Assembly: GCA_951828515.1 (NCBI GenBank)
Contig: OX639992.1
Coordinates: 2,458,217-2,522,216, forward strand
Reading direction: 5' to 3'
DNA: 64,000 nucleotides
Origin: an uncultured Poribacteria bacterium
Lineage (GTDB): Bacteria; Poribacteria; WGA-4E; WGA-3G
The translations under genes were made by a program, and so were the position numbers. The notes beneath the pieces are model-generated. The model did no database searches. It was not told the DNA's origin and saw only the letters and a list, made by a program, of their open reading frames with translations. Positions 4,520-58,918 of this stretch are shown one piece after another. The number at the start of each line of letters is the position of its first letter. Within the stretch, counting starts at the first letter, position 1.

Positions 4520-4609
4520 AGGACTTACGCAAAATCAGTAAATTCCATCTATTTGGACGCATTCGGTGCGGTTGGGAAACCGCACCTACCAGGGAAGTGC
4601 GTAAGTCCT
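4520..4609. repeat. 90-bp palindromic element (AGGACTTACGCA ends), copy a
   Basis: The ends AGGACTTACGCA and TGCGTAAGTCCT are a perfect 12-bp inverted repeat. The middle holds a REP hairpin (GTGCGGTT-loop-AACCGCAC followed by CTACC). Near-identical units occur at 8056-8144 and 14409-14498, with a divergent one at 19549-19667. It carries no coding potential. Confidence 0.85.
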
Positions 4610-4755
4610 ATTATAACCCAAGTTGCCACCTATTCATAGACATAGCACCCCTACGGGGTGCGGTTGCTTAAATATGCCATTTTCTATAGATATAGCACCC
4701 CTACGGGGTGAAAAAGCACCCGAAAATCTACTTAAAACGTTCAAAACTCATTAGT
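4566..4755 (+). repeat. 190-bp direct repeat, left copy
   Basis: The sequence is repeated, apparently without change, at 5033-5222 (offset 467). It contains the REP half of the 90-bp element and two short palindromes AGCACCCCTACGGGGTG (4646 and 4690 region). The two copies flank MITE copy A. Confidence 0.85.
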
Positions 4756-4757
4756 CT

Positions 4758-5003
4758 CGTAGGTTGGGTAGAACGGATGCCACCAAACCCGTAAATATCA
4801 TAGAAAGCGAAGGTCGCTCCATACACGCCCCATTGATCAGAAACCGAGAGAAACCCAACGCTTTCGGCATCAAGTGCCGGCACCTCTGCGGGTATGACGT
4901 TGGGTTTCGCTGGGGTATTGAGTGGGTATGCCGGCATGTCGTATTTCAGGCGTATTTGGCACCCCTACGTCTTCTTTTTGCGTTCCGCTCTACCCAACCT
5001 ACG
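4758..5003. mobile_element. 247-bp MITE family, copy A (diverged)
   Basis: This 246-bp element is bounded by CGTAGGTTGGGTAGAACGG and its inverted copy with one mismatch. An internal inverted pair, GAAACCCAACG...TTGGGTTTC, allows a branched fold. It is a diverged relative of the copies at 37280-37526 and 48646-48892 in the same orientation. It encodes no convincing protein, so it is non-autonomous. The short ORFs across it are not conserved in the other copies. Confidence 0.75.
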
Positions 5004-5032
5004 GGACCCGAAACCGCTAAATTGACACCTAT

Positions 5033-5222
5033 GTGCGGTTGGGAAACCGCACCTACCAGGGAAGTGCGTAAGTCCTATTATAACCCAAGTTGCCACCTAT
5101 TCATAGACATAGCACCCCTACGGGGTGCGGTTGCTTAAATATGCCATTTTCTATAGATATAGCACCCCTACGGGGTGAAAAAGCACCCGAAAATCTACTT
5201 AAAACGTTCAAAACTCATTAGT
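5033..5222 (+). repeat. 190-bp direct repeat, right copy
   Basis: This is an apparently exact copy of 4566-4755 on the far side of MITE copy A. It lacks the left arm of the 90-bp element, so the duplication starts inside that element's REP. Confidence 0.85.
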
Positions 5223-8055: not shown

Positions 8056-8144
8056 AGGACTTACGCACTTCCCCGGTAGGTGCGGTTTCCAACCGCACCG
8101 AATGCGTCCGAATAGATGAAATTTAGTGATTTTGCGTAAGTCCT
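8056..8144. repeat. 90-bp palindromic element (AGGACTTACGCA ends), copy b
   Basis: This 89-bp unit has the same 12-bp inverted ends and central REP as 4520-4609. One arm lies inside the XPB helicase reading frame and supplies its last six codons and the stop (8123-8140). The rest sits between the helicase and DUF790 genes. Confidence 0.88.
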
Positions 8145-9598: not shown

Positions 9599-9732
9599 CC
9601 TATGGACATTCAAGTGTTTTTTATAGTGGATCCTGCAATTACTTTTACACCAAACTCGGTGCGGTTAGAAACCGCACCTACCGGGGGTGGGCAGATATTT
9701 TCGGGCCTATGGACATTCAAGTGTTTTTTAAT
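9599..9732. repeat. REP-containing insert flanked by 24-26-bp direct repeats
   Basis: CCTATGGACATTCAAGTG followed by a T-run and TA occurs at 9599 and again at 9706. Between the copies lies a TATAGTGGATCC arm like the TATAGTA elements, then a REP hairpin (GGTGCGGTT-AGA-AACCGCACC, 9657-9677 region) with the CTACC tail. The layout looks like an insert with a long target duplication, or a slipped duplication. It occupies the divergent spacer between the helicase and dehydrogenase genes. Confidence 0.7.
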
Positions 9733-14255: not shown

Positions 14256-14408
14256 CAGGTTTCCTCTAACCAAGGCATTTGGAAAGAACTTTATGCCCGT
14301 CTACCTCCGCAACCTAAAGATAGCGGATTTGACGGGGCGGGTGCTAAAACCAAATGCGAAGTTCTCCAATCTTAGGAAATTTGATTTTTTCAAAAGTGTT
14401 ACTTAATC

Positions 14409-14498
14409 AGGACTTACGCAAAATCAGTAAATCTCGTCTATTCGGACGTATTCGGTGCGGTTAGGAAACCGCACCTACCAAGGAAGTGCGTAAGTCCT
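14409..14498. repeat. 90-bp palindromic element (AGGACTTACGCA ends), copy c
   Basis: Perfect 12-bp inverted ends enclose a REP hairpin, nearly identical to copy a. It lies upstream of the 1142-residue gene. The surrounding spacer (14256-14640) holds nothing else I can identify. Confidence 0.85.
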
Positions 14499-18700: not shown

Positions 18701-19186
18701 CTCGATGATGATGCGGCGGCACCGGCGGCGATGGGGGGTATAGCGTCCCTCTTGGATCGGGCGACGCTTGAATCCTTGGATCCAGATGTGATCGCTGCGC
18801 AGTTGTCGATCTTGCGTTCAAAGAGCGATGGCTCCCTGAAATATCAGCGTGCGATTGCGTTGCTTGAAAGCATGTTGGTAGCACTGCGTCCCGTCGAGAC
18901 GTTGCTATTGGCGAACTATCCGAATCCGTTCAACCCTGAGACGTGGCTCCCGTATCACTTAGCGGATGCCAGCGATGTGGTCATCACGATCTATGATATG
19001 CGTGGCACTGTTGTGCGGCGTTTGGAACTCGGACATCAGCGTGAGGGTTACTACACGAGTCGTGCCCGTGCGGCGTATTGGGATGGTCGCAACCATATCG
19101 GTGAACGCGTGGCGAGCGGTGTCTATTTCTACCAGTTGGAAGCAGACGATATGTCTCTCCTGCGTAAGATGGTAATTTTGAAGTAG
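15740..19186 (+). CDS. Secreted Ig-like / LRR / dockerin protein 1 (1148 aa)
   Basis: AAGGAG lies seven bases before the ATG. The signal peptide is MRRFYTVLVIFLSLMYCVPL. Six bacterial Ig-like (Big_12-type) repeats follow (about residues 32-705), each with a PxVSIxVPxxxQxxxFDVxITF start and a DAAGNxNTA end. An LRR cap begins WMPDANLR at 708, followed by about eight 22-residue internalin-like LRRs. A dockerin-type pair of EF-hand loops (DVNEDGAVDASD, DVNGDGTVDADD) spans about 933-995. The C-terminal FlgD-Ig / type IX sorting-like domain (YPNPFNPETW...MVILK) covers about 1058-1148. A secreted or surface-anchored binding protein is expected, with calcium binding by the dockerin. Its ligand is unknown. 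Repeats 2 and 3 carry proline-rich or acidic insertions absent from the paralogs. Confidence 0.9.
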   Translation: MRRFYTVLVIFLSLMYCVPLVSVGQDEANVDVDAPAVSISVPEGVQNGAFDVTITFTEVVAKFLRSGVSLSGTATASVTALVTTDHTIFTATITPTTSGEVTLSVPADVAEGAANNRNTASEPQTVTVDMDPPAVSILVPPTAQKRRFDVVITFSEPVSDFEKTDLQLTVTEAEPVSGFELPLPPALPPPPELEASLLSAEDTAGTRVVLQSGPSVEIRSLTTTDNITYTANISFTVSGTVEFDIAENVATDAAGNGNLEASEQIATLDKNKPLVKISAPDTTQTGAFDVVITFSEPVSGFEETELGIEISKNPAQLSAARDVDDFIDSDESTGSFITAWESEDNTTYTATITPTLSSNLTFSIAGTVVADAAGNLNYALPEKSEPTVSVDIDPPRIRITVPDGVQKDAFDVKIGIEENLEGFEQADFVLTDNTAGATITAWQDRIISGHRLSIADYTATITPTTSGAVTFSVAEGIVTDAAGNDNTAAEPQTVSVDMDPPGVSISVPEDVQGGASGVAATVFYVTVTFTEPVSDFAQADLSLSGTASANITSWSSTDDTVFTAQIVSTTSGDIVLNIAAEVATDAGGNANTAAEPQTVTVDVDAPAVSISVPEGVQTETFDVTITFTEPVSDFLETDLVIGGAGQVLMTAGKSTEYTVYTATFALVSNGAVTFHIPAGAATDAAGNENTASGTESVTVQDTEAVTDWMPDANLRADVRDALGIAPNATFTKAMVGNLKHTLVAVYSQIANLKGLEYATSLTGLYLTGNNLIKDLEPIKILTDLTHLEININKISDVGPLSNLTNLETLDLGDNSVSDIGSLEKLTRLTHLYLDSNSISDISPLEDLTSLMHLYLESNSIVDVSKLSKLTNLTVLDLKENSIEDVSPLEGLTSLTALYLDGNPILDTSPLYLLLSGNGGGGTITRIDIDVSEYAPWDVNEDGAVDASDSALVTAAIGQSGADILNSRTDVNGDGTVDADDLTLVTENLDDDAAAPAAMGGIASLLDRATLESLDPDVIAAQLSILRSKSDGSLKYQRAIALLESMLVALRPVETLLLANYPNPFNPETWLPYHLADASDVVITIYDMRGTVVRRLELGHQREGYYTSRARAAYWDGRNHIGERVASGVYFYQLEADDMSLLRKMVILK

Positions 19187-19204: not shown

Positions 19205-19228
19205 GTAGGTGCGGTTTGCAACCGCACC
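19205..19228 (+). repeat. 3' REP of the 15740 gene
   Basis: GTAG followed by the hairpin GTGCGGTT-loop-AACCGCAC, starting 19 nt after the stop codon. The stop itself lies in AAGTAGGTGCG, which repeats the REP head GTAGGTGCG. Confidence 0.85.
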
Positions 19229-19370
19229 ATAGGTGTCAATTTTAGAAAAAGATGCCCTGTTTATGGAGACATGTAGGTGTTCATCGTCTGAATCAGGATT
19301 TACAGGATTCAAGGATTTACAAGATGATGGAGTCTTCTTGATTCGTTTTCTATTCTCACTGCGAAGCAAT

Positions 19371-19436
19371 AGCACCCCTACGGGGTGCGGTTGCTGGCAT
19401 ACGCCGTTTTCTATAGACATAGCACCCCTACGGGGT
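19371..19436 (+). repeat. AGCACCCCTACGGGGT palindromes
   Basis: Two short palindromes (AGCACCCCTACGGGGTGC at 19371, and again at 19421) are preceded by the TTCTATAGACATAGC context seen near 4640-4700, 5100-5175 and 15480-15560. Confidence 0.65.
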
Positions 19437-19446
19437 TTGGTGGCAT

Positions 19447-19465
19447 CCGTTCTACCCAGCCTACG
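19447..19465. other. Solo end of the 247-bp MITE family
   Basis: CCGTTCTACCCAGCCTACG differs at one base from the MITE right inverted repeat. No matching left end is nearby, so it is probably a decayed or recombined copy. Confidence 0.55.
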
Positions 19466-19548
19466 AGACGACGACCAAGTGCTGTAAAATATCCCTAAAT
19501 TGACACCTATGGTGCGGTTTGCAACCGCACTGGATAGAGTTATGAGTA

Positions 19549-20066: not shown

Positions 20067-23000
20067 ATGAGACGCTTTTATACGATTCTATTCATTTTCC
20101 TATCCTTGATGTATTGGCTTCCGTTTGCTATTGGACAGGAGGTCGTCGATGAAGTTCGACCGGATGTTAGCCTTTCAGTGCCGGAAGGTGCGCAGAACAG
20201 TGCGTTTGATGTAACGATCACGTTCACAGAGGTGGTTTCCGACTTTGCACAAGCCGACCTGACGGTCTCCGGGACAGCCACGGCGAGTATCACGGCATGG
20301 ACAACGACGGATAACACCGTCTTTACTGCGACGATTACACCGACGACGAGTGGTGACGTGACACTCAGCGTTGCGGCAGATGTTGCCACCGATGCCGCAA
20401 GCAACAACAATACTGCCTCCGAAACGCAAACTGTCAGCGTAGATATAGACGCGCCAGAAGTTAGTATTTCGGTGCCAGAAGGTGCGCAGACCGCTGCGTT
20501 TGATGTGGTGATCACGTTCACGGAGTCGGTGTCCGGCTTTGAGCAATCCGACCTGACGTTTTCAGGGACAGCCGCAGCGAACATTACGGCATTGACATCT
20601 ACAGACGACACGATTTACACGGCGACGCTCACGCCGACGACGGGTGGCAGATTGACACTCAGCGTTGCGGCAGATGTTGCCACCGATGCCGCAAGCAACA
20701 ACAATACTGCCGCCGAACAGACCGTCACGGTGGATCTCTCTGCGACCTGGATGCCGGATGAAAGCCTCAGAAACATTATCCGTGCGTTCCACATCCGGCC
20801 CGGATCGAACGAACCACTCACCCAGTTGAAAATGTTAGAAGTAACCTCGCTGGGTGCACCAGGTGGGTATAAAGGTATCAAGATAAACGACATCACAGGG
20901 TTGGAATATGCCACGAACCTTACGGTGTTATCTCTGGCAAAGAATTCGATAAGCGACCTGAGTCCGCTTAAGAAGTTGACCGGCCTGACGACGTTAGATA
21001 TGGAAGAGAATTCGATAAGCGACGTGGCTCCGCTTTCTAAGTTGACGAGCCTGACGGAGTTATGGCTATCGGACAACTCAATCAGTGCTATCAGTTTACT
21101 ATCAGACCTGACGAGCCTTCAGTCTTTAGGGCTTAGAAGGAATTCGATAAGTGACGTGTCTGAGCTTGCTAAGTTGACGAACCTTCAGGTGTTATGGCTT
21201 AATGGCAACTCAATAAGTGCTATCAGTGGGTTCGATGGTTTGGTCAACCTTAAGCGGTTAGATCTGGGAAGCAATTCGATCAGCGATGTGAATGGGCTTT
21301 CTAAGTTGAGCAGCCTTGAGTATTTATGGCTTGGAAGCAATTCGCTAAGTGACGTGACGAAACTTGGGGACCTGACGAGCCTGAAGTATCTAAATCTATC
21401 AAAGAATTCGGTAAGCAATCTGACCCCGCTTGAAGGCTTGACCAGCCTGACGGAGTTATATCTCTCGGAGAATTCGCTAAGCGATCTGACCTCGCTTTCT
21501 AAGTTGACGAATCTTTTCCTGTTATATCTGTCAAAGAATGAGATCAGAGACGTGAGTCCGCTTAAAGACTTGACGAGTATTAAGTATTTGCGGCTTTCTG
21601 GCAATCCGATTCTGGATACGTCTCCGCTTTACGATCTTTTGTCGGCGAATGACGGCAGCATTACGAGTATTGACATAACCGTGTCTAAATATGCGCCGTG
21701 GGATGTCAATAAGGACGAGAGTGTGGATGCCAGGGATGTGGCACTCGTCACCGCCGCTATAGGACAAAGTGGGGGTGGCATCTTGAATTCCCGGACGGAT
21801 GTCAACAGGGATGGCACGGTGGATAATGCCGACCTGACGCAGGTCACCGATAACGTTACGGATCCGGATGTGTTGAGTGTCATTATTTCTGTGCCAGAAG
21901 GCGTTCAGACGGGTATCTTTGATGTCGTGATCACGTTCACGCAGGTAGTTTCCGACTTTGCGCAATCAGATGTGTCGGTCTCCGGGACGGCAAACGCGAG
22001 TATCACGGCGTGGGCTTCGACGAGCGATATTACTTACACGGCGACGCTCACACCGACGACGGATGGTGAAGTGGTGCTGAACGTTGCGGCAGCTGTCGCT
22101 ACGGATGCTTCAAGCAACTCCAACACGGCTTCCGACTTGCAGACTGTCGATGTAGATATAGAGGTGCCGGAGGTTAGCCTTGCTGTGCCAGAAGACGTAA
22201 AAAACGGTGCGTTTGATGTGGTGATCACGTTCACGGAGTCGGTGTCCGGCTTTGAGCAATCAGAGGTATCGGTCTCCGGGACAGCCACGGCAAGCATCAC
22301 GGCATGGGAAACGACAGATAACACCGTCTTTACCGCCACACTCACACCGACGACGAGTGGCGAGGTAACGCTGGGCGTTGCGGCAGCTGTCGCCACGGAT
22401 GTTGAAGGTTATTCCAACACGGCTTCTGACGCTCAGACTGTCGATATAGATATGGATGCACCGAGTGTTAGCCTTGCTGTGCCAGAGGACGCGCAATATG
22501 ATACGTTTGATGTCGTGATTACGTTCACGGAGTCGGTGTCCGGCTTTGAGCAATCGGAGGTATCGGTCTCAGGAACAGCGATGGCGAGCATCACGGCATG
22601 GGCAACGACAGACGACACCGTCTTTACCGCCACACTCACACCGACGACGGATGGGACGGTGGTGGTGAGTGTTGCCGCAGATGTCGCGACAGATGTTGCA
22701 GGTAACAACAACACGGCTTCTGACTCACAGACTGTGTCAGTGCCAGAAGTTGCAACCGAATGGATGCCGGATGGCGGCCTCAGAACTGTCGTTCGAAGCA
22801 CACTTGGGCTTGGCCAAAACAATCCACTTACCCAGGCGAAAATGACAAAACTTACCACGTTAGAGGCCGATGCGCTCTGGATAAGGGACATCACTGGGTT
22901 GGAATATGCCACCAACCTGAAGGAGTTAGATCTTAGCAGGAATGGGGTAAGCGTCCTGACTCCGCTTGAAGGTTTGACGAGCCTGACGAAGTTAGAGCTG

Positions 23001-24230
23001 ATATATAATGGAATAAGCGACGTGAATCCGCTTTCTAAGTTGACGAACCTGACGATGTTAACTCTGTCAGAGAATGGGATAAGCGACGTGAATCCGCTTT
23101 CTAAGTTGACGAGCCTGATGACGTTATATCTGAGAGAAAATACGATAAGCGACGTGAGTCCGCTTTCTAAGTTGACGAACCTGACGCAGTTAAATCTTCA
23201 TGACAACTCGGTAAGCGACGTGAGTGCGCTTTCTGACGTGTCTGAGCTTTCTAAGTTGACGAGCCTTCAGGTGTTATGGCTTGGAGAGAATGAGATAAGC
23301 GACGTGAGTGCGCTTGCTAAGTTGACGAACCTGGGGTCGTTATATCTGCATGAGAATGAGATAAGTGACGTGAGTCATCTGAAAGGCTTGACGAACCTTA
23401 AGTCGTTGGCTCTGGACGAGAATGAGATAAGCGATGTGAGTGCGCTTGAGAAGTTGACGGACCTTAAGTGGTTATCTCTTAAGGGCAATCCGATTTCGGA
23501 TACGTCCCCGCTTTATGATCTCTTGTCGGCGAACGGGGGCAGTCTCGTGATTATTGACATAAGTGTATCTCAATATGCACCCTGGGATGTCAATAAGGAC
23601 GGTGTTGTGGATGCCAGCGATGTGGCACTCGTCACCGCCGCCATAGGACAAAGTGGAGCGGACATCTTGAATTCGCGGACGGATGTCAACGGCGACGGCA
23701 CGGTAGATAATAAAGACCTGACGCTGGTCACCGATAACCTTGATACTGATGATGATGCGGCGGCACCGTTGGCGATGGCGGGGATAGCGTCCCTTTTAGA
23801 TCGGGCGACGCTTGAATCCTTGGATCCAGAGGTGATCGCTGCGCAGTTGTCGATCTTGCGTTCAAAGAGCGATGGCTCCCTGAAATATCAGCGTGCGATC
23901 GCGTTGCTTGAAAGTGTGTTGGTAGCACTGCGTCCCGTTGAAACGTTGCTATTGGCGAACTATCCGAATCCGTTCAACCCTGAAACGTGGCTCCCGTATC
24001 ACTTAGCGGATGCCAGCGATGTGGTCATCACGATCTATGATATGCGTGGCACTGTTGTGCGGCGTTTGGAGCTCGGACATCAGCGTGAAGGCTACTACAC
24101 GAGTCGTGCCCGTGCGGCGTATTGGGATGGTCGCAACCATATCGGTGAACGTGTTGCGAGCGGTGTCTATTTCTACCAGTTGGAAGCAGACGATATGTCT
24201 CTCCTGCGTAAGATGGTCATTTTGAAGTAG
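20067..24230 (+). CDS. Secreted Ig-like / LRR / dockerin protein 2 (1387 aa)
   Basis: ATAAGGAG lies eight bases before the ATG. The signal peptide is MRRFYTILFIFLSLMYWLPFAIG. The order is: two Ig-like repeats (about 30-225); LRR block 1 from WMPDESLR at 227 (about 13 repeats of 22 residues); dockerin-like pair 1 (541-605, DVNKDESVDARD and DVNRDGTVDNAD); three Ig-like repeats (606-895); LRR block 2 from WMPDGGLR at 898; dockerin-like pair 2 (about 1169-1230); and the YPNPFNPETW C-terminal domain (1297-1387). Two full Ig-LRR-dockerin rounds in one chain show growth by module duplication. A secreted binding scaffold is likely, with no enzyme motif. One LRR in block 2 carries a short internal duplication (VSALSDVSELSKL). 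Confidence 0.9.
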   Translation: MRRFYTILFIFLSLMYWLPFAIGQEVVDEVRPDVSLSVPEGAQNSAFDVTITFTEVVSDFAQADLTVSGTATASITAWTTTDNTVFTATITPTTSGDVTLSVAADVATDAASNNNTASETQTVSVDIDAPEVSISVPEGAQTAAFDVVITFTESVSGFEQSDLTFSGTAAANITALTSTDDTIYTATLTPTTGGRLTLSVAADVATDAASNNNTAAEQTVTVDLSATWMPDESLRNIIRAFHIRPGSNEPLTQLKMLEVTSLGAPGGYKGIKINDITGLEYATNLTVLSLAKNSISDLSPLKKLTGLTTLDMEENSISDVAPLSKLTSLTELWLSDNSISAISLLSDLTSLQSLGLRRNSISDVSELAKLTNLQVLWLNGNSISAISGFDGLVNLKRLDLGSNSISDVNGLSKLSSLEYLWLGSNSLSDVTKLGDLTSLKYLNLSKNSVSNLTPLEGLTSLTELYLSENSLSDLTSLSKLTNLFLLYLSKNEIRDVSPLKDLTSIKYLRLSGNPILDTSPLYDLLSANDGSITSIDITVSKYAPWDVNKDESVDARDVALVTAAIGQSGGGILNSRTDVNRDGTVDNADLTQVTDNVTDPDVLSVIISVPEGVQTGIFDVVITFTQVVSDFAQSDVSVSGTANASITAWASTSDITYTATLTPTTDGEVVLNVAAAVATDASSNSNTASDLQTVDVDIEVPEVSLAVPEDVKNGAFDVVITFTESVSGFEQSEVSVSGTATASITAWETTDNTVFTATLTPTTSGEVTLGVAAAVATDVEGYSNTASDAQTVDIDMDAPSVSLAVPEDAQYDTFDVVITFTESVSGFEQSEVSVSGTAMASITAWATTDDTVFTATLTPTTDGTVVVSVAADVATDVAGNNNTASDSQTVSVPEVATEWMPDGGLRTVVRSTLGLGQNNPLTQAKMTKLTTLEADALWIRDITGLEYATNLKELDLSRNGVSVLTPLEGLTSLTKLELIYNGISDVNPLSKLTNLTMLTLSENGISDVNPLSKLTSLMTLYLRENTISDVSPLSKLTNLTQLNLHDNSVSDVSALSDVSELSKLTSLQVLWLGENEISDVSALAKLTNLGSLYLHENEISDVSHLKGLTNLKSLALDENEISDVSALEKLTDLKWLSLKGNPISDTSPLYDLLSANGGSLVIIDISVSQYAPWDVNKDGVVDASDVALVTAAIGQSGADILNSRTDVNGDGTVDNKDLTLVTDNLDTDDDAAAPLAMAGIASLLDRATLESLDPEVIAAQLSILRSKSDGSLKYQRAIALLESVLVALRPVETLLLANYPNPFNPETWLPYHLADASDVVITIYDMRGTVVRRLELGHQREGYYTSRARAAYWDGRNHIGERVASGVYFYQLEADDMSLLRKMVILK

Positions 24231-24248: not shown

Positions 24249-24272
24249 GTAGGTGCGGTTTGCAACCGCACC
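24249..24272 (+). repeat. 3' REP of the 20067 gene
   Basis: GTAG plus hairpin GTGCGGTT-loop-AACCGCAC begins 19 nt after the stop. The stop context AAGTAGGT again imitates the REP head. Confidence 0.85.
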
Positions 24273-24493
24273 ATAACTGTCAATTTAGGGATTTTATAGG
24301 ACTTTAGCAGTGATAAACATGCCGCCCTTACAGGGCTCAGCTCTTCTTTTCAACGAATTTCTATAAACATGGCGTCCCTACGGGACTAAAGAGGCAACCT
24401 CCTTCATGTTTTTTGTAGGAAGTGTGAGTCGCTTTGCGCAAGAACATTTTCAAATCTAAAAAACTCGATGTTTTTTCTTAAATTGACACTTAT

Positions 24494-24517
24494 GGTGCGG
24501 TTTGCAACCGCACCTAC
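24494..24517 (-). repeat. REP, minus orientation
   Basis: The hairpin GTGCGGTT-loop-AACCGCAC is followed by CTAC, so the GTAG tetranucleotide is on the minus strand. The spacer between the two REPs (24273-24493) holds only short GCCCTTACAGGGC-like palindromes. Confidence 0.8.
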
Positions 24518-24650: not shown

Positions 24651-26009
24651 ATGAAAATGAAACACTTTTACACACTTTTTATGCTATACCTTGCCTTCGG
24701 CAGTTATATTTACGCTGTTGATGCCCAGACCGCGGTTAGCGAACGCACCGGGCAGGTGAAAAACGCGATCGTCGCGGCAGCCGGCGTAGATTCTGCAAAC
24801 GATGTGACTGACACGCATCTTGCCAGCATTAAGGTACTGTCTCTGAATCTTAAAGGAATTAAAACACTGAAATCCGGTGATTTCGATGGTCTGACTGCAT
24901 TGACAGAGCTTGTCCTGACGCGCAACCCCTTAACGACGTTGCCAGCGGATATATTCGATGAACTCACCGCATTGGAAGAGCTCTGGTTGTATGAGAACGA
25001 TTTGAGTGCGTTGCCGGCTGGCATCTTTGATGAACTCACCGCAGTGACGTATCTCAGTCTGCGAGACAACGATTTGAGTGCGTTGCCGGACGGTATCTTT
25101 GACGAACTCACCGCAATGAAAACACTCAATCTGCGAAAGAACAAGTTGACGTCGTTGCCGGACGGTATCTTTGACGAACTCACCGCACTGGTAACAATTG
25201 ACGTGGGGAATAATCAGTTGACGTCGTTGCCGGATGGACTCTTTGATGAAATCCCCTCAGTGTCATCCATCCTCTTGGACGAGAACAATTTGAGTACGTT
25301 GCCGGATGGTATCTTTGACGGACTCACGGGACTCGGTATCCTCACCTTAGGCGGAAACACGGTGAATCCCTTCCTTCTGAGCGTGTCCCTAAAGAAGGTT
25401 GAAGACGGAAAGTTTAAGGTTACAGTCCCGACAGGTGCCCCTTTCAGTATGACCCTGTCGCTGAGCGTTACAAATGGAAGCATCAGTGGTGGGGCTACGA
25501 GTCTCACAATTTCTACGGGTAGCACCGAAAGTGAGGCGTTAACCGTGACACGCACGGCTGGTGCTACGGATGCTGTTACCGTGGATATCGGAAATTCCTT
25601 GCCGGAACCGCCTTTCTTTTCGCATTCTGGCTACAAACTCGTGAAGTCTGAGGACCTGCCGATTGTGGTTCTTGCTCACCCTGGTGCGCCTGCCCTTGAT
25701 ACGGCGGAGACTCCTGATGAGACGGCACTCCTCGTGAACTATCCGAACCCATTCAACCCTGAAACATGGATACCCTATCACTTGGCGGCTGCCGGGGATG
25801 TGGTCATCACGATCTATGATATGCGTGGCAGGGTCGTGCGTCGCTTAGAGTTTGGGCATCAGCCTGCAGGCTACTACACGAGTCGTGCCCGTGCGGCGTA
25901 TTGGGACGGCAAAAACCATACCGGTGAACGCGTGGCGAGCGGTGTATATTTCTACCAGTTGGAGGCGGACACTATGTCCTTTCTACGCAAGATGGTCATT
26001 TTGAAGTAG
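24651..26009 (+). CDS. Secreted protein with 24-residue LPDGIFDELTAL leucine-rich repeats
   Basis: This 452-residue protein has signal peptide MKMKHFYTLFMLYLAFGSYIYAVDAQ. About seven LRRs follow (about residues 70-245), with a 24-residue consensus LPDGIFDELTAL-xx-L-x-L-xx-N-xLTS. This class resembles the modules of vertebrate Toll-like and lamprey VLR receptors, unlike the 22-residue LRRs of its neighbours. A beta-rich segment (about 245-335) precedes the C-terminal NYPNPFNPETW...MVILK sorting-like domain (about 363-452). There are no dockerin or Ig modules of the neighbouring type. A secreted binding role is inferred from architecture alone. The C-terminal domain is clearly shared with the array, so secretion probably follows the same route. 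Confidence 0.9.
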   Translation: MKMKHFYTLFMLYLAFGSYIYAVDAQTAVSERTGQVKNAIVAAAGVDSANDVTDTHLASIKVLSLNLKGIKTLKSGDFDGLTALTELVLTRNPLTTLPADIFDELTALEELWLYENDLSALPAGIFDELTAVTYLSLRDNDLSALPDGIFDELTAMKTLNLRKNKLTSLPDGIFDELTALVTIDVGNNQLTSLPDGLFDEIPSVSSILLDENNLSTLPDGIFDGLTGLGILTLGGNTVNPFLLSVSLKKVEDGKFKVTVPTGAPFSMTLSLSVTNGSISGGATSLTISTGSTESEALTVTRTAGATDAVTVDIGNSLPEPPFFSHSGYKLVKSEDLPIVVLAHPGAPALDTAETPDETALLVNYPNPFNPETWIPYHLAAAGDVVITIYDMRGRVVRRLEFGHQPAGYYTSRARAAYWDGKNHTGERVASGVYFYQLEADTMSFLRKMVILK

Positions 26010-26463
26010 GTGCGTCCCCCCGGTCCCGGTAGGTGCGCCCCCCGGTCCCGGTAGGTGCGGTTTGCAACCGCACCGGTCTCGGCACCCCAGACCCGGTAGG
26101 TGCGGTTTGCAACCGCACCGGGTATCGCTAGGAAATTACCGAGTTAAATTCTGAAATGTCATGAAACCGCCCCGGATTCTGGGGGATCGGTTGTTTTGAA
26201 GTCTTTGTGGTTTTTGGTTAAAAGTCGGGCGCAGTTTCAAACAGTGCCTACCAGTCTTGGGGTGCCGAAGTATCCGTGGTTTTTGGTAAAAGTCCGGTGC
26301 GGTTGCAAACCGCACCTACCGGGTCTGGGGTAGTGGTTTTTGGTAAAAGTCGGGCGCAGTTTCAAACAGTGAAGAAACACCCCAGCAAAAACCCTACCGG
26401 GACCGGGGTATCCGAAGTCTTTGTGGTTTTTGGTAAAAGTCGGGCGCGGTTTGCAACCGCGCC
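26010..26463. repeat. REP cluster on the left of the RAYT gene
   Basis: After the stop (AAGTAGGTGCG) come two truncated REP heads (GTAGGTGCG at 26012-26036, about 22-nt period). Complete REPs follow at 26051-26074 (+), 26096-26119 (+) and 26296-26319 (-), with a GGCGCGGTT...AACCGCGCC variant at 26443-26463. In between are repeats of GTTTTTGGTAAAAGTCGGGCGCAG with CAGTTTCAAACAGTG. No gene fits this spacer. Confidence 0.8.
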
Positions 26464-26527
26464 GGACTCGGTTCGCATTTGAATCTTCCTCGAACCGCGC
26501 CAACAGCCGCCGATGAAAGGAACCTAC

Positions 26528-27004
26528 ATGAACACTTCGCCAAAATACCGGAGTCAAGACTTACGCAAAGCCAGATGTTCCATACCCGGGGCATATTACC
26601 ACATCGTAATCGTCACGCATCGGCGGCAGCCGATCTTAGCGAACGACAACGCAGCACCAATTATTTTTAAGACCTTTGATTGGTTAGAGACCCAAAACCG
26701 TTTAGAATGGACATGTATCATGGTGATGCCCGACCATGTGCACACGGTCATCAAACTTGAAGAAGGACAGACGCTTGCGAAGATGCTGCATTCGTTGAAA
26801 CGGTTCTCTGCCCGTGAGATTAACAAACACTTATCGCAAAGCGGTCCCTTCTGGCAGAAAGGTTACACCGATTGGAACATTCGGACGGAAACAAGATTGA
26901 ACGACACCCTCCGCTATTGTTATATGAACCCTGTCAGGAAAAGACTGGTAGAACGCGCGAGGGAATACCCGTATTGGCGGTGTAAATATGAGATGGATTG
27001 GTAA
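26528..27004 (+). CDS. REP-associated tyrosine transposase (RAYT, Y1 HUH family)
   Basis: This 158-residue protein starts at 26528, because AAAGGA lies six bases upstream. The earlier in-frame ATG (26513) overlaps that ribosome-binding site. The HUH motif is MPDHVHTVIKL (about residues 70-80). The catalytic Tyr lies in the helix DTLRYCYMNPVRKRLV (about residues 131-146), matching the Y-x-x-x-NPV signature of IS200-like RAYTs. FWQKGYTDWNIR precedes it, as in the family. These enzymes cut and join single-stranded DNA at REP hairpins preceded by GTAG-type tetranucleotides. Here GTAG-headed REPs flank the gene on both sides (26051-26319 and 27049-27293), the typical arrangement. Codons 8-12 (CAAGACTTACGCAAA) resemble the end of the 90-bp repeat family. 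Confidence 0.9.
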   Translation: MNTSPKYRSQDLRKARCSIPGAYYHIVIVTHRRQPILANDNAAPIIFKTFDWLETQNRLEWTCIMVMPDHVHTVIKLEEGQTLAKMLHSLKRFSAREINKHLSQSGPFWQKGYTDWNIRTETRLNDTLRYCYMNPVRKRLVERAREYPYWRCKYEMDW

Positions 27005-27048
27005 TAAGGTTTCGGTTCGGTTTGATGAGACTCGTCCCCCCGGACCCG

Positions 27049-27293
27049 GTAGGTGCGGTTTGCAACCGCACCGGATATCATTCGGAAATTACCGAATTAA
27101 ATTCTGAAACTTCATGTAACCGCACCGGGCGTAGTTATAGGATTATCGGAATATGTGTTTCCCGAGGTCTGGTAGGTTCGGTTTGATGAGGTATCATAAA
27201 ATATGTCGGTAGTTCTATACCCGTATCCGGTGCGGTTGCAAACCGCACCTACCGGGTTTGGGGGGAACCGGTGCGGTTGCAAACCGCACCTAC
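27049..27293. repeat. REP cluster on the right of the RAYT gene
   Basis: REPs lie at 27049-27072 (+), 27229-27252 (-) and 27270-27293 (-). They are followed by GGGTTTTGGGAAGTTTGG tandem copies to about 27370. The mixture of orientations mirrors the left side. Confidence 0.82.
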
Positions 27294-27450: not shown

Positions 27451-27584
27451 AATATTCGATCAATTATGTAATATTTAATAAATAGACCTACAAGTATTTA
27501 TGCGTTGACTCGACGTTTTTTCTAGGTGGCAACTTGAGTTTTAACGAACCTGTTTTATCTTTCTCTTCTATAAGGAGCAAAAAA

Positions 27585-30500
27585 ATGAGACGTTTTTACA
27601 CGATTTTAGTAATTTTCCTATCCGTGATGTATTGGCTTCCGATGGTTTCCGTTGGACAGGATAAGGGCGTGGGCGAGGACGAGATAGCCGAAGTGGAAAC
27701 CGACTGGATGCCGGATGCCAACCTCAGGAGTCTTGTGCGGACTGAACTCGGGCTCCAGGAAGATGTGGCACTCACCACGGCGAATATGACAGAACTCACC
27801 ACGCTAAATGCCGAAAGTCGCCAGATAAGCAACATCAAGGGGTTGGAACATGCTACCAGCCTGACGGAGTTATTTTTGGCAAGGAATTCGGTAAGCGACG
27901 TGAGTCATCTTTCCGGTTTGACGAGCCTGACGCTGTTAAATCTGGCAAGGAATTCGGTAAGTGACGTGAGTCATCTTTCTAAGTTGACGAGCCTGACGAA
28001 GTTATGGCTTGGAGAGAACTCGGTAAGTGACGTGAGTGGGCTTTCTAACTTGACGAGCTTGTGGTCGTTATATCTGCAGGGCAACTCGATAAGCGACGTG
28101 AGTCATCTTTCCAGCTTGACGAGCCTGACGGTGTTAGACCTGTCAGCTAATTCGGTAATCGATATCAGTGATCTTGCTAAGTTGACGAGCCTTGGGGTGT
28201 TAGACCTGAGAAATAATTCGATAATCGATATCAGTGCGCTTGAGGACTTGACGAAGCTTCTGCAGGTATGGCTTTCTGGCAATCCGATTTCGGATACGTC
28301 TCCGCTTTATGGTCTTTTGTCGGTGAATGGCGGCAGTATTACGAGTATTGACATAGCCGTGGCTCAATATGCACCGTGGGATGTCAATGAGGACGAGGCT
28401 GTGGATGCCAGCGATGTGGCACTCGTGATCGCTGCCTTCGGACAAAGTGGTGCTGACATATTGAACTCGCGGACGGATGTTAACAGGGACGGCACGGTAG
28501 ATAATGTCGACCTGACGCTGGTCACTAATAACCTTGATATCCCTGATGATGGGGCTGCGCCGGGTGTTAGCCTTTCAGTGCCAACAGACGTTCAAAACGG
28601 TGCGTTTGAGGTAACGATCACGTTCACGGAGGTCGTCTCCGGCTTTGAGCAGACGGAGGTATCGGTCTCCGGGACAGCGAATGCGAGCATCACGGCGTGG
28701 GCAACGACAGATAACACCGTCTGGACGGCAACGCTCACACCGACGACGAGTGGTGACGTGACACTCAGCGTTGGGGCAAATATTGCCATCGATGCGGCGA
28801 ATAACAACAATACCGCCTCCGAAACGCAAACAGTGCGTGTAGATATGGATGCGCCGAGTGTCAGTCTTTCGGTGCCAACAGGCGTTCAAAACGGTGCGTT
28901 TGATGTCGTGATCACGTTCACGGAGGTAGCCTCCGACTTTGAACAATCGGAGGTATCAGTCTCCGGGACGGCGACGGCGAGCATCACGGCGTGGACAACG
29001 ACAGACGACAGGGACTTTACTGCCACGATCACACCGACGACGGATGGGACGGTGGTGGTGAGTGTTGCCGCAGATGTCGCCACGGATGCCGCAGGTAACA
29101 ACAACACGGCTTCGGACGCACAAACCGTCACCGTAGATATGACACCACCGACAGTCAGTCTTTCTCCGCCAGCAGGTTCGCAGACCGGTGCGTTTGCCGT
29201 CATAATCATTTTCTCGGAGGGTGTCTCCGATTTTGAGCAAGCAGACCTTATGGTCTCCGGGACGGCGACGGCGAGCATCACGGCATGGGCAGCGCCAGAC
29301 GATACCATCTTTACTGCCACGATCACACCGACGACGGATGGGACAGTGGTGGTGAGTGTTGCGGCAGATGTCGCCACGGATGCCGCAGGTAACAACAACA
29401 CGGCTTCCAATTCACGGACTGTGACGGTAACACTGGCAGCGGCAACAGTAGAAACCGAAGCGGAAACAGTAGAAACCGAAACCGAATGGATGCCGGATGC
29501 CAAGCTCAGAACTGCCGTTCGATCCGCACTTGGACTCGGAGCAGACGATGCGCTCACCACGGCGAAAATGACAGAACTGACGGAATTCAGTGCTTCACAT
29601 AAGGCGATCGTAAACGTCAAGGGGTTGGAACACGCGACCCAGCTGACCGATTTAAATCTTAGGGCTAACTCCATAAGTGATCTCACGCCACTTTCAGGTT
29701 TGATAAGCCTCACCGGGTTACAACTTGGGAACAACTCGATAAGCGACGTGAGTCATCTTTCCAGTTTGACGAGCCTTACACGTTTGTCTCTACCTAACAA
29801 CTTGATAAGCGACGTGACTCCACTTTCTAAGTTGACGAGTCTGACGGTGTTATTACTGGATAACAATTCGATAAGCGATGTCAGTCCCCTTTCTGACTTG
29901 GAAAAACTTCGCACAGTATTGCTTAATAACAATCCGATTTCGGATACGTCTCCGCTTTATGATCTTTTGTCGGCGAATGGGGGCAGCATTACGACGATTG
30001 ACATAGATGTCTACGCATTTTGGGATGTCAATCAGGACGGGAGTGTGGATGCCAGCGACTCGGCACTCGTCACCGCTGCCATAGGACAAAGTGGTGATGA
30101 CATCGTGGATCCCCGCACGGATGTCAACAGGGACGGCACGGTAGATAATGCCGATCTGACGCTCGTCACCGATAACATTACGGATACGGTTGCGCCGAGT
30201 GTTAGCCTTTCAGTGCCAACAGATGCTCAGACGGGTGCGTTTGATGTAACAATTACGTTCACGGAGTCGGTGTCCGGCTTTGAACAAGCAGATCTCACGG
30301 TGGCAGGAACAGCCACGGCGAGCATTACGGCATGGTCAACGACGGATAACACCGTCTTTACCGCCACGATTACACCGACGACGAGTGGGACAGTGGTGGT
30401 GAGTGTTGCGGCAGATGTCGCCACGGATGCGGCGAGTAACAACAACACGGCTTCCGATTCACAGACTGTGACGGTAACACTGGCAGCGGTAACACCGGCA

Positions 30501-33500
30501 GCGGCAACACCGGCAGCGACAACAGTAGAAACCGAAGCGGAAACCGAATGGATGCCGGATGCCAAGCTCAGAACTGCCGTTCGATCCGCACTTGGACTCG
30601 GAGCAGACGATGCGCTCACCACGGCGAAAATGACAGCACTGACGGAATTCAGTGCTTCACATAAGGCGATCGTAAACGTCAAGGGGTTGGAACACGCGAC
30701 CCAGCTGACCGATTTGAATCTGTACCGCAATACGATAAGCGACCTTACTCCCCTTAAAGACTTGACCCAGCTGACCGATTTGAATCTTAGGGCTAACTCC
30801 ATAAGTAATCTCACGCCACTTTCAGGTTTGGTAAACCTCACCGTGTTAAAACTTGGGAACAACTCGATAAGCGACCTGAGTCCTCTTTCCGGTTTGACGA
30901 GCCTTACAGGTTTGGCTCTACATAACAACTCGATAAGCGACATGAGTCATCTTGATGACTTGACCGCTCTTACTTGGTTAGACCTTGAGAACAACTCAAT
31001 AACCGATGTCAGTGCCCTATCAAAGCTGACGAGTCTTACGAATTTATTGCTTTTTGGCAATTCGATTTCGGATACGTCTCCGCTGTATTCGCGTCTTGCC
31101 GAGAACGGTGGTAGCATTACGAGTATTGACATAGAGGTATACGCATTTTGGGATGTTAATGAGGACGGGAGTGTGGATGCCAGCGACTCGGCACTCGTCA
31201 CCGCTGCCATAGGACAAAGTGGTGATGACATCGTGGATCCCCGCACGGATGTCAACAGGGACGGCACGGTAGATAATGCCGATCTGACGCTCGTCACCGA
31301 TAACATTACGGATACGGTTGCGCCGAGTGTTAGCCTTTCAGTGCCAACAGATGCTCAGACGGGTGCGTTTGATGTGACAATTACGTTCACGGAGTCGGTG
31401 TCCGGCTTTGAACAAGCAGATCTCACGGTCGCAGGGACGGCAACGGCGAGCATCACGGGATGGTCAACGACAGACGACACCGTCTTTACCGCTACCATCA
31501 CACCGACGACGGATGGGACGGTGGTGGTGAGTGTTGCCGCAGACGTTGCGACGGATGCGGCGAGTAACAACAACACGGCTTCCGATTCACAGACTGTGAC
31601 GGTAACACTGGCAGCGGCAACAGTAGAAACCGAAGCGGAAACAGTCGAAGCGGAAACCGACTGGATGCCGGATGCCAACCTCAGAAGTTTTGTTCGAACG
31701 GAACTTGGGCTTGAAGAAGGCGATGCACTCACCAAGGCGAAAATGACAGAACTCACCACGCTAAAGGTCGTCAGGCGCCAGATAAGCAACATCACCGGGT
31801 TGGAACATGCCACGGAGCTTACCAAGTTATCTCTTAATGGCAATTCGATAAGTGACCTCGGAGGTGAATCCGGTCCGCTTTCAAAATTGACCAACCTTAT
31901 CCTGTTATCTCTTGGTAGCAATTCGATAAGTGACCTCAGTTCGCTTTCAAACTTAACCAAGCTTATAAATTTAAGTATCAATGCGAATTCGATAAGCGAT
32001 CTCACGCCCCTTTCTAACTTGACAAACCTGGGAACGTTAGCGGCTTGGGAAAATTCGATAAGCGATATCAAGCCCCTTTCTGACTTGACAAACCTGACAA
32101 CGTTATATCTGCAGAGTAACTCGATAAGCGATGTCAGTCCCCTTTCTGACTTGGAAAAACTTCGCAGATTATCACTTAATAACAATCCGATTTCGGATAC
32201 GTCTCCGCTTTATGATCTTTTGTCGGCGAATGGCGGCAGCATTACGGGTATTGACATAGAAGTCTACGCATTTTGGGATGTCAATCAGGACGGGAGTGTG
32301 GATGCCAGTGATGTGGCACTCGTCACCGCTGCCATAGGACAAAGTGGCGATGACATCGTGAATTCTCGGACAGATGTCAACAGGGACGGCACGGTAGATA
32401 ATGCCGATCTGACGCTCGTCACCGATAACATTGCGGATACGGTTGCGCCGAGTGTTAGCCTTTCAGTGCCAACAGACGTTCAGAACGGGATGTTTGATGT
32501 AACGATAACATTCACAGAGTCGGTGTCCGACTTTGAACAAGCGGATCTCACGGTCGCAGGGACGGCCACGGCGAGCATCACGGGATGGTCAACGACAGAC
32601 GACACCGTCTTTACCGCTACCATCACACCCACGACGGATGGGACGGTGGTGGTGAGTGTTGCGGCGGATGTTGCCACAGATGCCGCAGACAACGCAAACA
32701 CGGCTTCCGACGCACAGACTGTGACGGTAGAAAACGCTTGGATGCTGGATGCCAACCTCAGAACCGCCGTTCGATCCGCACTTGGGCTTGGAGAAGAGGA
32801 GACACTCACCAAGGCGAAAATGACAGAACTCACCACGCTAAAGTCCGAAGGGTGGCAGGTGAGGAGGCGAATAAAGAACCTCACGGGGTTGGAACATGCC
32901 ACGAACCTGACATCGTTAGAACTTGATGACAATTCGATAAGTGCCCTGACGCCGCTTTCTGAGTTGACGAGCCTGACGAAGTTATCTCTGGGTGAGAATT
33001 CGATAAGCAACCTGACGCCGCTTTCTAAGTTGACGAGCCTGACGGAGTTAAGTCTGAATGACAATTTGGTAAGCGACGTGAGTGTGCTTTCTAAGTTGAC
33101 GAGCCTGACGGAGTTATACCTGTATGAGAATTCGATAAGCAACCTGAGTCCGCTTTCTAAGCTGACGAACCTGACGGAGTTAAGTCTGTATCAGAATTCG
33201 ATAAGCGACGTGAGTGATCTTTCTAAGTTGACGAACCTGACGAAGTTATCTCTGAATGAGAATTCGATAAGCAACCTGAGTCCGCTTTCTAAGCTGACGA
33301 ACCTGACGAATTTATATCTGGATGAGAATTCGATAATCGATGTGAGTCCACTTGAGAAGTTGACGAGCTTGACGAATTTGGGACTGAGCCAGAATTCGAT
33401 AAGCAATGTCAGTGCCCTATCAAAGCTGACGAATCTGACGGCTGTGTCGCTTTCAAGCAATCCGATTTCGGATACGTCTCCGCTTTATGATCTTTTGTCG

Positions 33501-36500
33501 GCGAATGGCGGCAGCATTACGAGTATTGACATAGAAGTCTCTCGGTATGCGCCGTGGGATGTCAATAAGGACGAGAGTGTGGATGCCAGCGATGTGGCAC
33601 TTGTCACCGCCGCCTTAGGACAAAGCGGTGATGACATACTGAATCCTCGCACGGATGTCAACGGCGATGGGGTTGTGGATGCCGATGACCTGGCACTCGT
33701 CACCGAGAACTTTCCGGATACGGTTGCGCCGGATGTCAGCATTTCTGTGCCAGAGGATACTCAAAACGGTGCGTTTGAGGTAACGATCACGTTCACGGAG
33801 TCGGTCTCCGGCTTTGAGCAGTCGGATGTATCGGTCTCCGGGACAGCGAATGCGAGGATCAGGACGTGGACAACGACGGATAACACCGTCTTTACTGCCA
33901 CAATCACACCCACGATGGGTGGCGCAGTGGTGCTCAGCGTTGCCGCTGGGGTCGCCACGGATGCCGCGAATAACGCCAATACGGCTTCTGATTCACAGAC
34001 TGTCACCGTAGATATGGTTGCACCGAGGGTTAGACTTTCACTGCCGACAGGCGTTCAGATGGGTGCGTTTGATGTCGTGATCACGTTCACGAAGTCGGTC
34101 TCCGGTTTTGCGCAATCAGACCTGACACTCTCAGGAACAGCCACGGCGAGCATCACGGCATGGGCAGCGACGGATAACACCGTCTTTACCGCCACCATCA
34201 CGCCGACGACGAATGGGACGGTGGTCCTCAGCGTTGCTGGCGGGAGCGCGACAGATGCGGCGGGGAACAACAATGCGGCTTCCGGGTCACAAACCGTCAC
34301 CGTAGATTTCTCCGCGACTTGGATGCCGGATGCCAACCTTAGAACTGCCGTTCGATCCGCACTTGGGCTTAACGCAGCCGATGCGCTCACCACGGCGAAA
34401 ATGACAGAACTCACAACGCTAAGGGCCAAAAGTCAGCAGATAAAGAACATCACCGGGTTGGAACATGCCACGAACTTGATATCGTTAGACCTTGGTGACA
34501 ATTCGATAAGCGACGTGAGTGCGCTTTCTAAGTTGACGAGCCTGACATCGTTATTTCTGAGAGATAACTCGATAAGTGACGTGTCTGCGCTTGAGAAGTT
34601 GACGAACCTGACGAAATTGTATCTGAATAACAACTCGATAAGTGACCTGACTGCGCTTGAGAAGTTGACGAGCCTGTGGACGTTAAGGCTGCCGGGCAAC
34701 TCGATAAGCAACCTGACACCGCTTTCTAAGTTGACGAGCCTGCATGTGTTATATCTGCATGACAACTCGATAAGTGACGTGTCTGCGCTTTCTGACTTGA
34801 CGAGTCTACTGTCGTTATATCTTAAGAACAATCCGATTTCGGATACGTCCCCGCTGTATGATCTCTTGTCGGCGAATGGTGGCACAATTACGACGATTGA
34901 CATAGCCGTGGCTCAGTATGCGCCGTGGGATGTCAATAAGGACGAGAGTGTGGATGCCAGCGATGTGGCACTTGTCACCGCCGCCTTAGGACAAAGCGGT
35001 GATGCCATACTGAATTCCCGCACGGATGTCAACGGCGATGGGGTTGTGGATGCCGATGACCTGGCACTCGTTACTGGAAACGTTACGGATGCGTCTGCCC
35101 TGAGTGTTAGCATTGCTGTGCCAGCAGGTGTTCAGAACGGTGCGTTTGATGTAACGATTACCTTTACAGAGTCGGTGTCCGACTTTGAACAAGCGGATCT
35201 CACGGTCGCAGGGACGGCAACGGCGAGCATTACGGCGTGGGCAACGACGGATAACACCGTCTTTACTGCCACGATTACACCCACGACGGGTGGGACGGTG
35301 GTGGTGAGCGTTGCGGCAGATGTCGCCACGGATGCCGTGAATAACGCCAATACGGCTTCTGATTCACAGACCGTCACCGTAGATATGGCTGCCCCGAGTG
35401 TTAGCCTCTCTGTGCCAGAAGGTTCACAGGTGGATGCGTTTGATGTAGAGATCACGTTCAGTGAAGTCGTCTCCGACTTTGCGCAAGCCGACCTGACGGT
35501 CTCCGGGACAGCGACGGCGAGCATTACGGGATGGGAAACGACGGATAACACCGTCTTTACCGCCACAATCACGGCGACGGTGGCTGGCGATGTAACACTC
35601 AGTGTTGCGGCAGATGTCGCCACGGATGCCGCGGGCAACAACAACACGGCTTCCGACGCTCAGACTGTGACGGTAACAGTGGAAGCGGAAGCCGACTGGA
35701 TGCCGGATGCCAACCTCAGAACTGTCGTTCGAGCAGCACTTGGGCTCGCGGCCGATGCAGCTCTCACCAAGACGGAAATGACAGAACTGACGAAAATAGG
35801 GGCTGCCTCTAAGGGTATAGCGGACCTCACGGGATTGGAGTATGCCACGAACCTGACATCGTTAAATCTGATGTCCAATCCGATAAGCGACGTGAGTGTG
35901 CTTAAGCCCTTGACGAAGTTGACGCTTTTACATCTGGGTAGCAATTCGGTAAGCGACGTGAGTGTGCTTTCTAACTTGACGAAACTGACGAATTTAAAGA
36001 TTCAGTCCAATTCGGTAAGCGACGTGAGTGTGCTTTCTAACTTGACGAAACTGACGATTTTATCTTTGGATAGCAATTCGGTAAGCGACGTGAGTGTGCT
36101 TTCTAAGTTGACGAACCTTGGATATTTATGGCTGTTTAGCAATTCGGTAAGCGACGTGAGTGTGCTTTCTAAGTTGACGAACCTGACGTTTTTATATCTG
36201 TCACGGACTTCAGTAAGCGATGTAAGTCCGCTTTCTAACTTGACGCGTCTAAAGTATTTACATCTGCCTGACAATTCGGTAAGCGACGTGAGTCATCTTG
36301 AGGGCTTGACGAACCTTGAGCACTTATATCTGACAGATAATTCGGTAATCGACGTGACTCCGCTTTCTAAGTTGACGAACCTTACGGAGTTAGGTCTAGT
36401 AAGGAATTCGGTAAGCAATGTGAGTCCACTTGAGAAGTTGACGAGTTTGACGCGGTTAAGCCTTTATGGCAACTCGATTTTGGATACCTCCCCGCTTTAT

Positions 36501-37226: not shown

Positions 37227-37250
37227 GTAGGTGCGGTTTTCAACCGCACC
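37227..37250 (+). repeat. 3' REP of the 27585 gene
   Basis: GTAG plus hairpin GTGCGGTT-loop-AACCGCAC begins 19 nt after the stop (AAATAGGTGCG). ATAGGTGTCAATTTA follows, as after the 15740 and 44690 genes. Confidence 0.85.
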
Positions 37251-37279
37251 ATAGGTGTCAATTTAGCGGTTTCGGGTCC

Positions 37280-37526
37280 CGTAGGTTGGGTAGAACGGAT
37301 TCCATCAAATCCCGAAAAATTCATAAAAAAATGCAGTCTCGTCAGACACGCTATATCCAGCAGATACCGAGTGAAACCCAACGCTTTGGTTGTGAAGTTT
37401 CCGTGACTCTGCGGGTATGAAGTTGGGTTTCACTATGGTCTTGAGAGTATAGCGGAGTCTATCAGATTTCAGGTGTGTTTGGAACACCGATGTTCGCCTT
37501 CTCAAGACCGTTCTACCCAACCTACG
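37280..37526. mobile_element. 247-bp MITE family, copy B
   Basis: It has perfect 19-bp inverted ends, CGTAGGTTGGGTAGAACGG and CCGTTCTACCCAACCTACG. The interior holds AGTGAAACCCAACG and TTGGGTTTCACT as a second inverted pair. It is close to copy C (48646) and has the same right flank (GGCGCACTGTCCTTGGG). It has no conserved ORF. Confidence 0.82.
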
Positions 37527-37607
37527 GGCGCACTGTCCTTGGGTTAAGCCCGGTTCGGTTAGGAAACCGAACCTACCGGGCCTGGGGACCCCTAAATTGA
37601 CACTTAT

Positions 37608-40064: not shown

Positions 40065-40088
40065 GTAGGTGCGGTTTGTAACCGCACC
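40065..40088 (+). repeat. 3' REP of the 38103 gene
   Basis: GTAG plus hairpin GTGCGGTT-loop-AACCGCAC begins 19 nt after the stop (AAGTAGGTACG). Confidence 0.83.
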
Positions 40089-44320: not shown

Positions 44321-44345
44321 GTAGGTGCGGTTGGGAAACCGCATC
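44321..44345 (+). repeat. 3' REP of the 40433 gene
   Basis: GTAG plus GTGCGGTT-GGG-AAACCGCATC begins 19 nt after the stop. The right arm carries one substitution (CAC to CAT), so the hairpin is slightly weakened. Confidence 0.78.
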
Positions 44346-48582: not shown

Positions 48583-48606
48583 GTAGGTGCGGTTTTCAAC
48601 CGCACC
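48583..48606 (+). repeat. 3' REP of the 44690 gene
   Basis: GTAG plus hairpin GTGCGGTT-loop-AACCGCAC begins 21 nt after the stop (AAGTAGGTACG). ATAGGTGTCAATTTA follows. A second hairpin without GTAG is at 48988-49008. Confidence 0.83.
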
Positions 48607-58794: not shown

Positions 58795-58918
58795 AGTAAC
58801 CTCCATGAGGAGAGTGTCGGTGATGCAAATACATCTACCTGTTAGATTCACTCATACTCTTAGTGTAACTCATGGGGGCATATGATACAAACTATAAGTG
58901 ACCCCTAACCCAGACCCG

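Follow-up and report, generated by a model that had tools for sequence, protein, structure and literature searches.

The REPtrons of RAYT/TnpAREP groups 2 and 3 (classes 2.2 and 2.5) are the closest known system to the locus described here. TnpAREP acts strand-specifically on single-stranded REP DNA, in RAYT group 3 a short perfect palindrome stands next to the GTAG, and the mechanism of REP spreading is stated to be unresolved (PMC8266576); the catalytic Tyr of TnpAREP has the spacing Y-x3-N, with N119 four residues past it (PMC6006769). The IS200/IS605 elements (IS608, ISDra2) have their enzyme superfamily in common with RAYT, use the lagging-strand template for both excision and insertion, and have an orientation that recapitulates replication (PMC5371812). 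REP-like, intergenic palindromes of 18 nt are present in Caldithrix abyssi at ~40 copies, with an asymmetric centre that switches at the predicted origin; they differ from the REPs described below in having no reported GTAG head or RAYT tie (PMC5317091). According to the same study, which gives a hint of strand preference for the Caldithrix palindromes, no such preference was on record for REPs in 2017 (PMC5317091), and in the open-access literature we found no later report, nor any description of replichore orientation for RAYT-linked REPs. REPs are also targets of the insertion sequences IS1397, IS621 and ISRm22, the last an IS4 family member with 6-bp repeats at the palindrome axis (PMC1525189).

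The locus lies in the window, the 64,000-nucleotide stretch analysed here (G000:C1:2458217-2522216), within the 5.85 Mb, one-contig chromosome of a Poribacteria sponge symbiont. It adds a Poribacteria system, with a replication-linked orientation of its REPs, to the known RAYT/REP kind. With the REPtrons it shares the Y1 HUH fold, the HUH motif and Tyr/Asn spacing, GTAG hairpins in both orientations, dispersed intergenic REPs, and co-variation of the two components; the 9-bp stem resembles the group 3 palindrome, a likeness drawn from REP form. It differs in its host phylum, which is unmentioned in the REP survey PMC3733652, and in that its REPs are mostly singlets with one GTAG.

The RAYT gene (26513..27004, + strand) encodes a 163-aa protein that in profile searches scores 122.1 bits against the NCBIfam model for REP-associated tyrosine transposases (REP_Tyr_transpos, NF047646; cut-off 80) and 58 bits against Y1_Tnp (PF01797; cut-off 23). 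Its predicted fold, from a structure model of moderate confidence (pLDDT 61), matches E. coli TnpAREP with a REP hairpin (4er8; Foldseek E=1.3e-6, TM 0.62) and also the ISDra2 transposase, and the complete Y1 HUH RAYT reported in the earlier note is thus confirmed. The locus departs from the IS200/IS605 elements in that the protein falls under the cut-off of the IS200 model (NF033573, 47 vs 55 bits) and no LE/RE-bounded element is seen around the gene; no full-length dispersed copies in the IS200/IS605 style were found in the chromosome, where the nearest homologue shares 67% identity. Three RAYT homologues were found when the genome was searched (100, 67 and 54% identity), and not the single RAYT family that the earlier note had proposed to look for; the 67% copy (G000:C1:2880651-2881121, L028) has REPs of another family, GTAGGCGAGGTT, at its flanks, and the 54% copy is located at G000:C1:2854448-2854891 (L029). 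Close relatives of the 163-aa protein are all encoded in MAGs named Candidatus or uncultured Poribacteria. In an alignment with 18 relatives, H75 and H77 of the HUH motif (H75-V-H77) are invariant, as the HVH reading of the earlier note had it, and Y135 is Tyr in 18 of the 19 sequences, with Cys in one relative (L218). Since Y135-x3-N139 (within RYCYMNPV) is spaced as in TnpAREP, the likely nucleophile and catalytic Tyr should, judging by the alignment, be Y135, and not Y137 as implied by the note's 'Y-M-NPV'.

Six perfect hairpins of the form GTAGGTGCGGTT-TGC-AACCGCACC are present around the RAYT gene within 1.3 kb, each with a GTAG head, the 9-bp stem GGTGCGGTT and the loop TGC, and in agreement with the earlier description they occur in both orientations: three on the + strand (26051..26074, 26096..26119 and 27049..27072) and three on the - strand (26296..26319, 27229..27252 and 27270..27293). 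As single-strand DNA the hairpin has a computed folding energy of -13.2 kcal/mol (z -4.5). A related palindrome without the GTAG head, GGCGCGGTT-TGC-AACCGCGCC, to which no strand is assigned, is located at 26443..26463, and two tandem partial REP heads, GTAGGTGCG(T/C)CCCCC, at 26006..26050 (+). The TAG stop codon of the upstream LRR/FlgD_ig array gene (24651-26009) falls within the first GTAGGTGCG head (26006-26011), and this REP-like head is tandemly repeated at 26029. When the REPs of this region were considered as terminators, four terminator-like sites were found vs 2.3 in shuffles, which is no claimable excess.

The same REP recurs many times in the window, as had been claimed, with 22 matches to GTAGGTGCGGTT at ≤1 mismatch vs 0.31 expected and a maximum of 3 in 100 shuffles. 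In the whole genome exact GTAGGTGCGGTT occurs 161 times (75 forward, 86 reverse; reversed control 1), and 105 copies have the complete palindrome. Among 9-bp hairpins the GTAG head is specific: GTAG with a perfect 9-bp stem is found in 116 hairpins, and nine control heads in 0-15, in a 2.4 Mb sample of genomic stretches. Past the first 1.3 Mb this sample was taken largely at REP sites, which leaves the family counts not free of bias. REP stems are a perfect 9 bp and loops mostly 3-4 nt, chiefly TCCT, TGC, TCT and TCCC, the TGC type being that which adjoins the RAYT, where 6 of the 25 genomic copies of the TGC-loop 24-mer lie within 1.3 kb. The REPs are intergenic and varied in loop and stem, and they are often central in larger inverted-repeat elements, including type A (TAGGACTTACGCA ends), type B (TATAGT ends), type C (ATGAAGTTTAAT ends) and others. 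Within the window, REPs lie in type A elements at 4565..4589 (-), 8076..8099 (+) and 14454..14478 (-), and in a type B element at 9658..9681 (-). At five chromosomal positions (G000:C1 1265, 623536, 672306, 5158315 and 5839108) the GTAGGTGCGGTT head is followed by a common insertion beginning TTGCGGCGTACTCGCCC, several of these lying within the REP loop. In a search for empty sites, in which the joined flanks of 100 REPs were compared with the 2.4 Mb of fetched DNA, no empty-site pair or new REP insertion was found, and no clean empty site is among the matches listed, all of which are the original sites, chimeras or paralogues that carry a REP.

RAYT and REPs co-vary among relatives, by statistics that ignore phylogeny. 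A RAYT homologue (at 1e-10) is present in 41 of 85 genomes of the phylum and the REP head in 72, and most relatives with a RAYT of >~60% identity have 9-bp-stem GTAG hairpins close to the gene, whereas distant RAYT relatives (~50% identity) have none alongside. From genome to genome the stems near close RAYTs vary, a change in one arm being matched in the other (GGTGCGGTT, GGTTCGGTT, GGTGCGATT, GGCACGGTT and others). How far GGTGCGGTT heads outweigh GGTTCGGTT heads beside the RAYT is predictive of their balance elsewhere in the same genome (Spearman rho 0.69, n=17, 34/20000 permutations). The earlier note held that REPs abundant in genomes lacking a RAYT would weaken the link, and genomes rich in REPs in which no close RAYT was detected do occur (for example G058, G039, G021 and G062, mostly drafts; G058 has 114 GTGC-type and 69 GTTC-type heads), yet genomes with a close RAYT average more REPs than those without (median 128 vs 70, p=0.0075). 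The assignment of the locus as a RAYT with its own REPs, in the REPtron arrangement, is supported by profile, fold and cross-genome co-variation.

Across the chromosome the REPs mostly share one orientation relative to replication, with GTAG on the lagging-strand template. The dnaA gene is at 2.348 Mb, and the origin was taken as dnaA and the terminus as its antipode. The REPs being mostly singlets with one GTAG, their orientation is readable: GTAG heads are +53/-22 in the right arm and +15/-58 in the left arm, such that GTAG falls on the template of the lagging strand in 111 of 148 located REPs (p=9e-10), or 96 of 129 after neighbours within 2 kb are merged. Only 51% of ORFs are co-directional with replication, the arm effect persists with a gene-strand control (logistic regression on merged sites outside the window, n=98; p=6.6e-10), and REPs between convergent genes are concordant in 17 of 18 cases (right +8/-1, left 0/-9). 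Gene direction as the cause of REP orientation is ruled out by the regression and by these convergent sites. GC skew barely separates the replichore arms (p=0.14) and no match to a dif-like motif was found in the fetched stretches of the chromosome; as GC skew is weak, the placement of origin and terminus rests on dnaA and symmetry. The best-fit axis of REP orientation (2.24-2.72 Mb) includes dnaA, and holding dnaA in place puts the optimal terminus at a chromosome fraction of 0.49. In 1000 shuffles of the signs, a concordance as high as the one observed never arose, whichever axis was tried.

The bias extends to other genomes in part. The finished relative G081 has 42 of 60 REPs concordant (p=0.003; p=0.004 with gene control), and G082 is biased only on the arm left of dnaA (-29/+10 vs +24/-27). 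No orientation bias is seen in G083 (57/100) or G047 (11/27); a close RAYT is undetected in both, two genomes being too few for a test. In draft genomes, regional coherence is suggestive in G068 (17 same/6 opposite) and weak in G074 and G080.

We consider it fairly probable that the locus is a REPtron whose RAYT recognises these REPs, and that their spread via the lagging-strand template imprints replication direction. The observations joined in this explanation are the RAYT-class protein, the GTAG hairpin family, the co-variation of flank and genome, and the replichore orientation, and the step added to them is that RAYT would move or copy REPs through lagging-strand DNA. RAYT would bind the GTAG hairpin folded in single-stranded stretches of the lagging-strand template and cut the REP with Y135; strand transfer or copying would then deliver REP copies to further exposed sites on that template, and such placement would imprint the direction of replication on the REP population. 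The sign of the bias, shared by every REP context class, is that predicted by single-strand, lagging-strand mobilisation in the manner of IS608 and other IS200/IS605 elements. Against this explanation are the partial or absent bias in relatives, the many REPs central in TIR elements potentially mobile by way of a DDE transposase, a GC skew too weak to place origin and terminus, the failure to find an empty-site pair, the REP-rich genomes in which no close RAYT was detected, and the moderate confidence of the structure model. The stronger proposition, that one-headed REPs carry a chromosome-wide replication imprint independent of gene direction and so reveal RAYT dissemination via single-stranded DNA at the fork, is put forward tentatively, with a little less than an even chance of being correct. 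An orientation that follows the replichore links the spreading of REPs to the lagging-strand template in a way that is checkable in any finished genome with asymmetric REPs and, if the imprint is kept, REPs would mark origin, terminus and past inversions in genomes of weak GC skew, this one included.

Selection could also keep REP orientation, if REPs inserted without preference and were harmful or useful relative to the fork, like Chi or KOPS. A lean toward the lagging-strand template in every REP context class (A 21/23, C-left 26/34, B 8/11, F 5/6, other 35/50; individually significant only for A, C and the unclassified), including TIR elements possibly moved by another transposase, would fit this, as would the C. 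abyssi palindrome, for which a Chi-like function is suggested by the authors reporting its strand preference (PMC5317091). A conserved function would not, however, be expected to leave two relatives (27-105 REPs) unbiased, nor does selection sit easily with intergenic REPs so varied in loop and stem, and the lagging-template sign is the prediction of the IS200/IS605 mechanism (PMC5371812); we regard selection as an unlikely explanation.

A further reading makes the REPs cargo of TIR-bearing, MITE-like elements (A, B and D) that are moved by a DDE transposase and oriented by replication, with RAYT a bystander. The central position of REPs in A and B elements and the bias of type A, the strongest of all classes, speak for it, as does the beta clamp, which orients other IS families (review PMC5371812), and an IS4-type element does duplicate REPs as direct repeats. 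These D elements (TIR ATAGGTGTCAATTTA, 220-1467 bp) abut REPs, and 13 of 19 complete copies lie between direct repeats of 21 or 22 bp, which at REPs are the whole palindrome (21 bp with a 3-nt loop, 22 bp with a 4-nt loop), so that every such insertion duplicates the REP. They insert into REPs as IS1397, IS621 and ISRm22 do and are of the same IS4 family as ISRm22, differing from the latter in the length and position of their repeats. The 1467-bp copy encodes an IS4-family transposase (G000:C1:1282164-1283631; L131:14664-16130). Yet REPs outside A, B, C and F elements are biased too, the exact GTAG REP core is common to several unrelated element families, and the REP type beside the RAYT goes with that of the genome, all of which makes this reading rather improbable. 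Chimeric repeats in which left and right modules are swapped exactly at the REP are found at 1694320 (L137; A-left with C-right), 4855879 (L184; C-left with F-right), 1655748 (L135) and 3199275 (L164), and this exchange indicates that REPs mark recombination or insertion junctions. In the window, a 48-bp flank, a type A left end and a REP are directly repeated either side of a D element (4565-5104), a duplication exceeding the usual 21-22 bp. Least probable is that RAYT has been domesticated for another role and that present REPs are fossils of past activity, which the plentiful REPs in genomes without a close RAYT and the Tyr lost in L218 would allow, although identical TGC-loop REPs crowd the RAYT and compensatory stem changes follow it across genomes.

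The RAYT lies in an array of surface-protein genes with FlgD_ig/Por_Secre_tail-like C-termini (profile search), and the earlier note suggested that it could help explain the turnover of these genes. In seven array genes a REP head begins 19-42 nt past the stop codon, and in six of them at 19-21 nt, the exception being the gene adjoining the RAYT (42 nt). All six REPs are on the + strand; five begin 19 nt past the stop, at 19205..19228 (gene 15740-19186), 24249..24272 (gene 20067-24230), 37227..37250 (loop TTC; gene 27534-37208), 40065..40088 (loop TGT; gene 38103-40046) and, in degenerate form, 44321..44345 (gene 40433-44302), and one at 21 nt, at 48583..48606 (loop TTC; gene 44690-48562). The stop-to-REP spacer is conserved, as often is the sequence on the far side. 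Given the fixed distance and shared flanks, the array REPs were most likely copied along with the genes, and would mostly be passengers of gene duplication. In relatives the RAYT orthologues mostly stand among unrelated neighbours, and no conserved array context was found save at L219 and L224, where an LRR-like gene lies close by. The evident newcomers in the array are IS4-type elements inserting into REPs: D elements (IS4-family or MITE derivatives) follow array-gene REPs at 19229-19510, 24273-24493 and 37251-37607, the second having at its far side a REP (24494..24517, -) that is a direct repeat of 24252-24272. With REPs that most likely travelled with genes, unrelated orthologue neighbours and IS4-type insertions that duplicate array REPs, a role of RAYT in surface-array turnover is unsupported. 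Several other array genes end in AAGTAGGTNCG. A 1148-aa ORF at 10827-14273 (-) has no Pfam match at 1e-3, and two adjoining DUF1670 genes lie beside the array at 57140-58851 (-).
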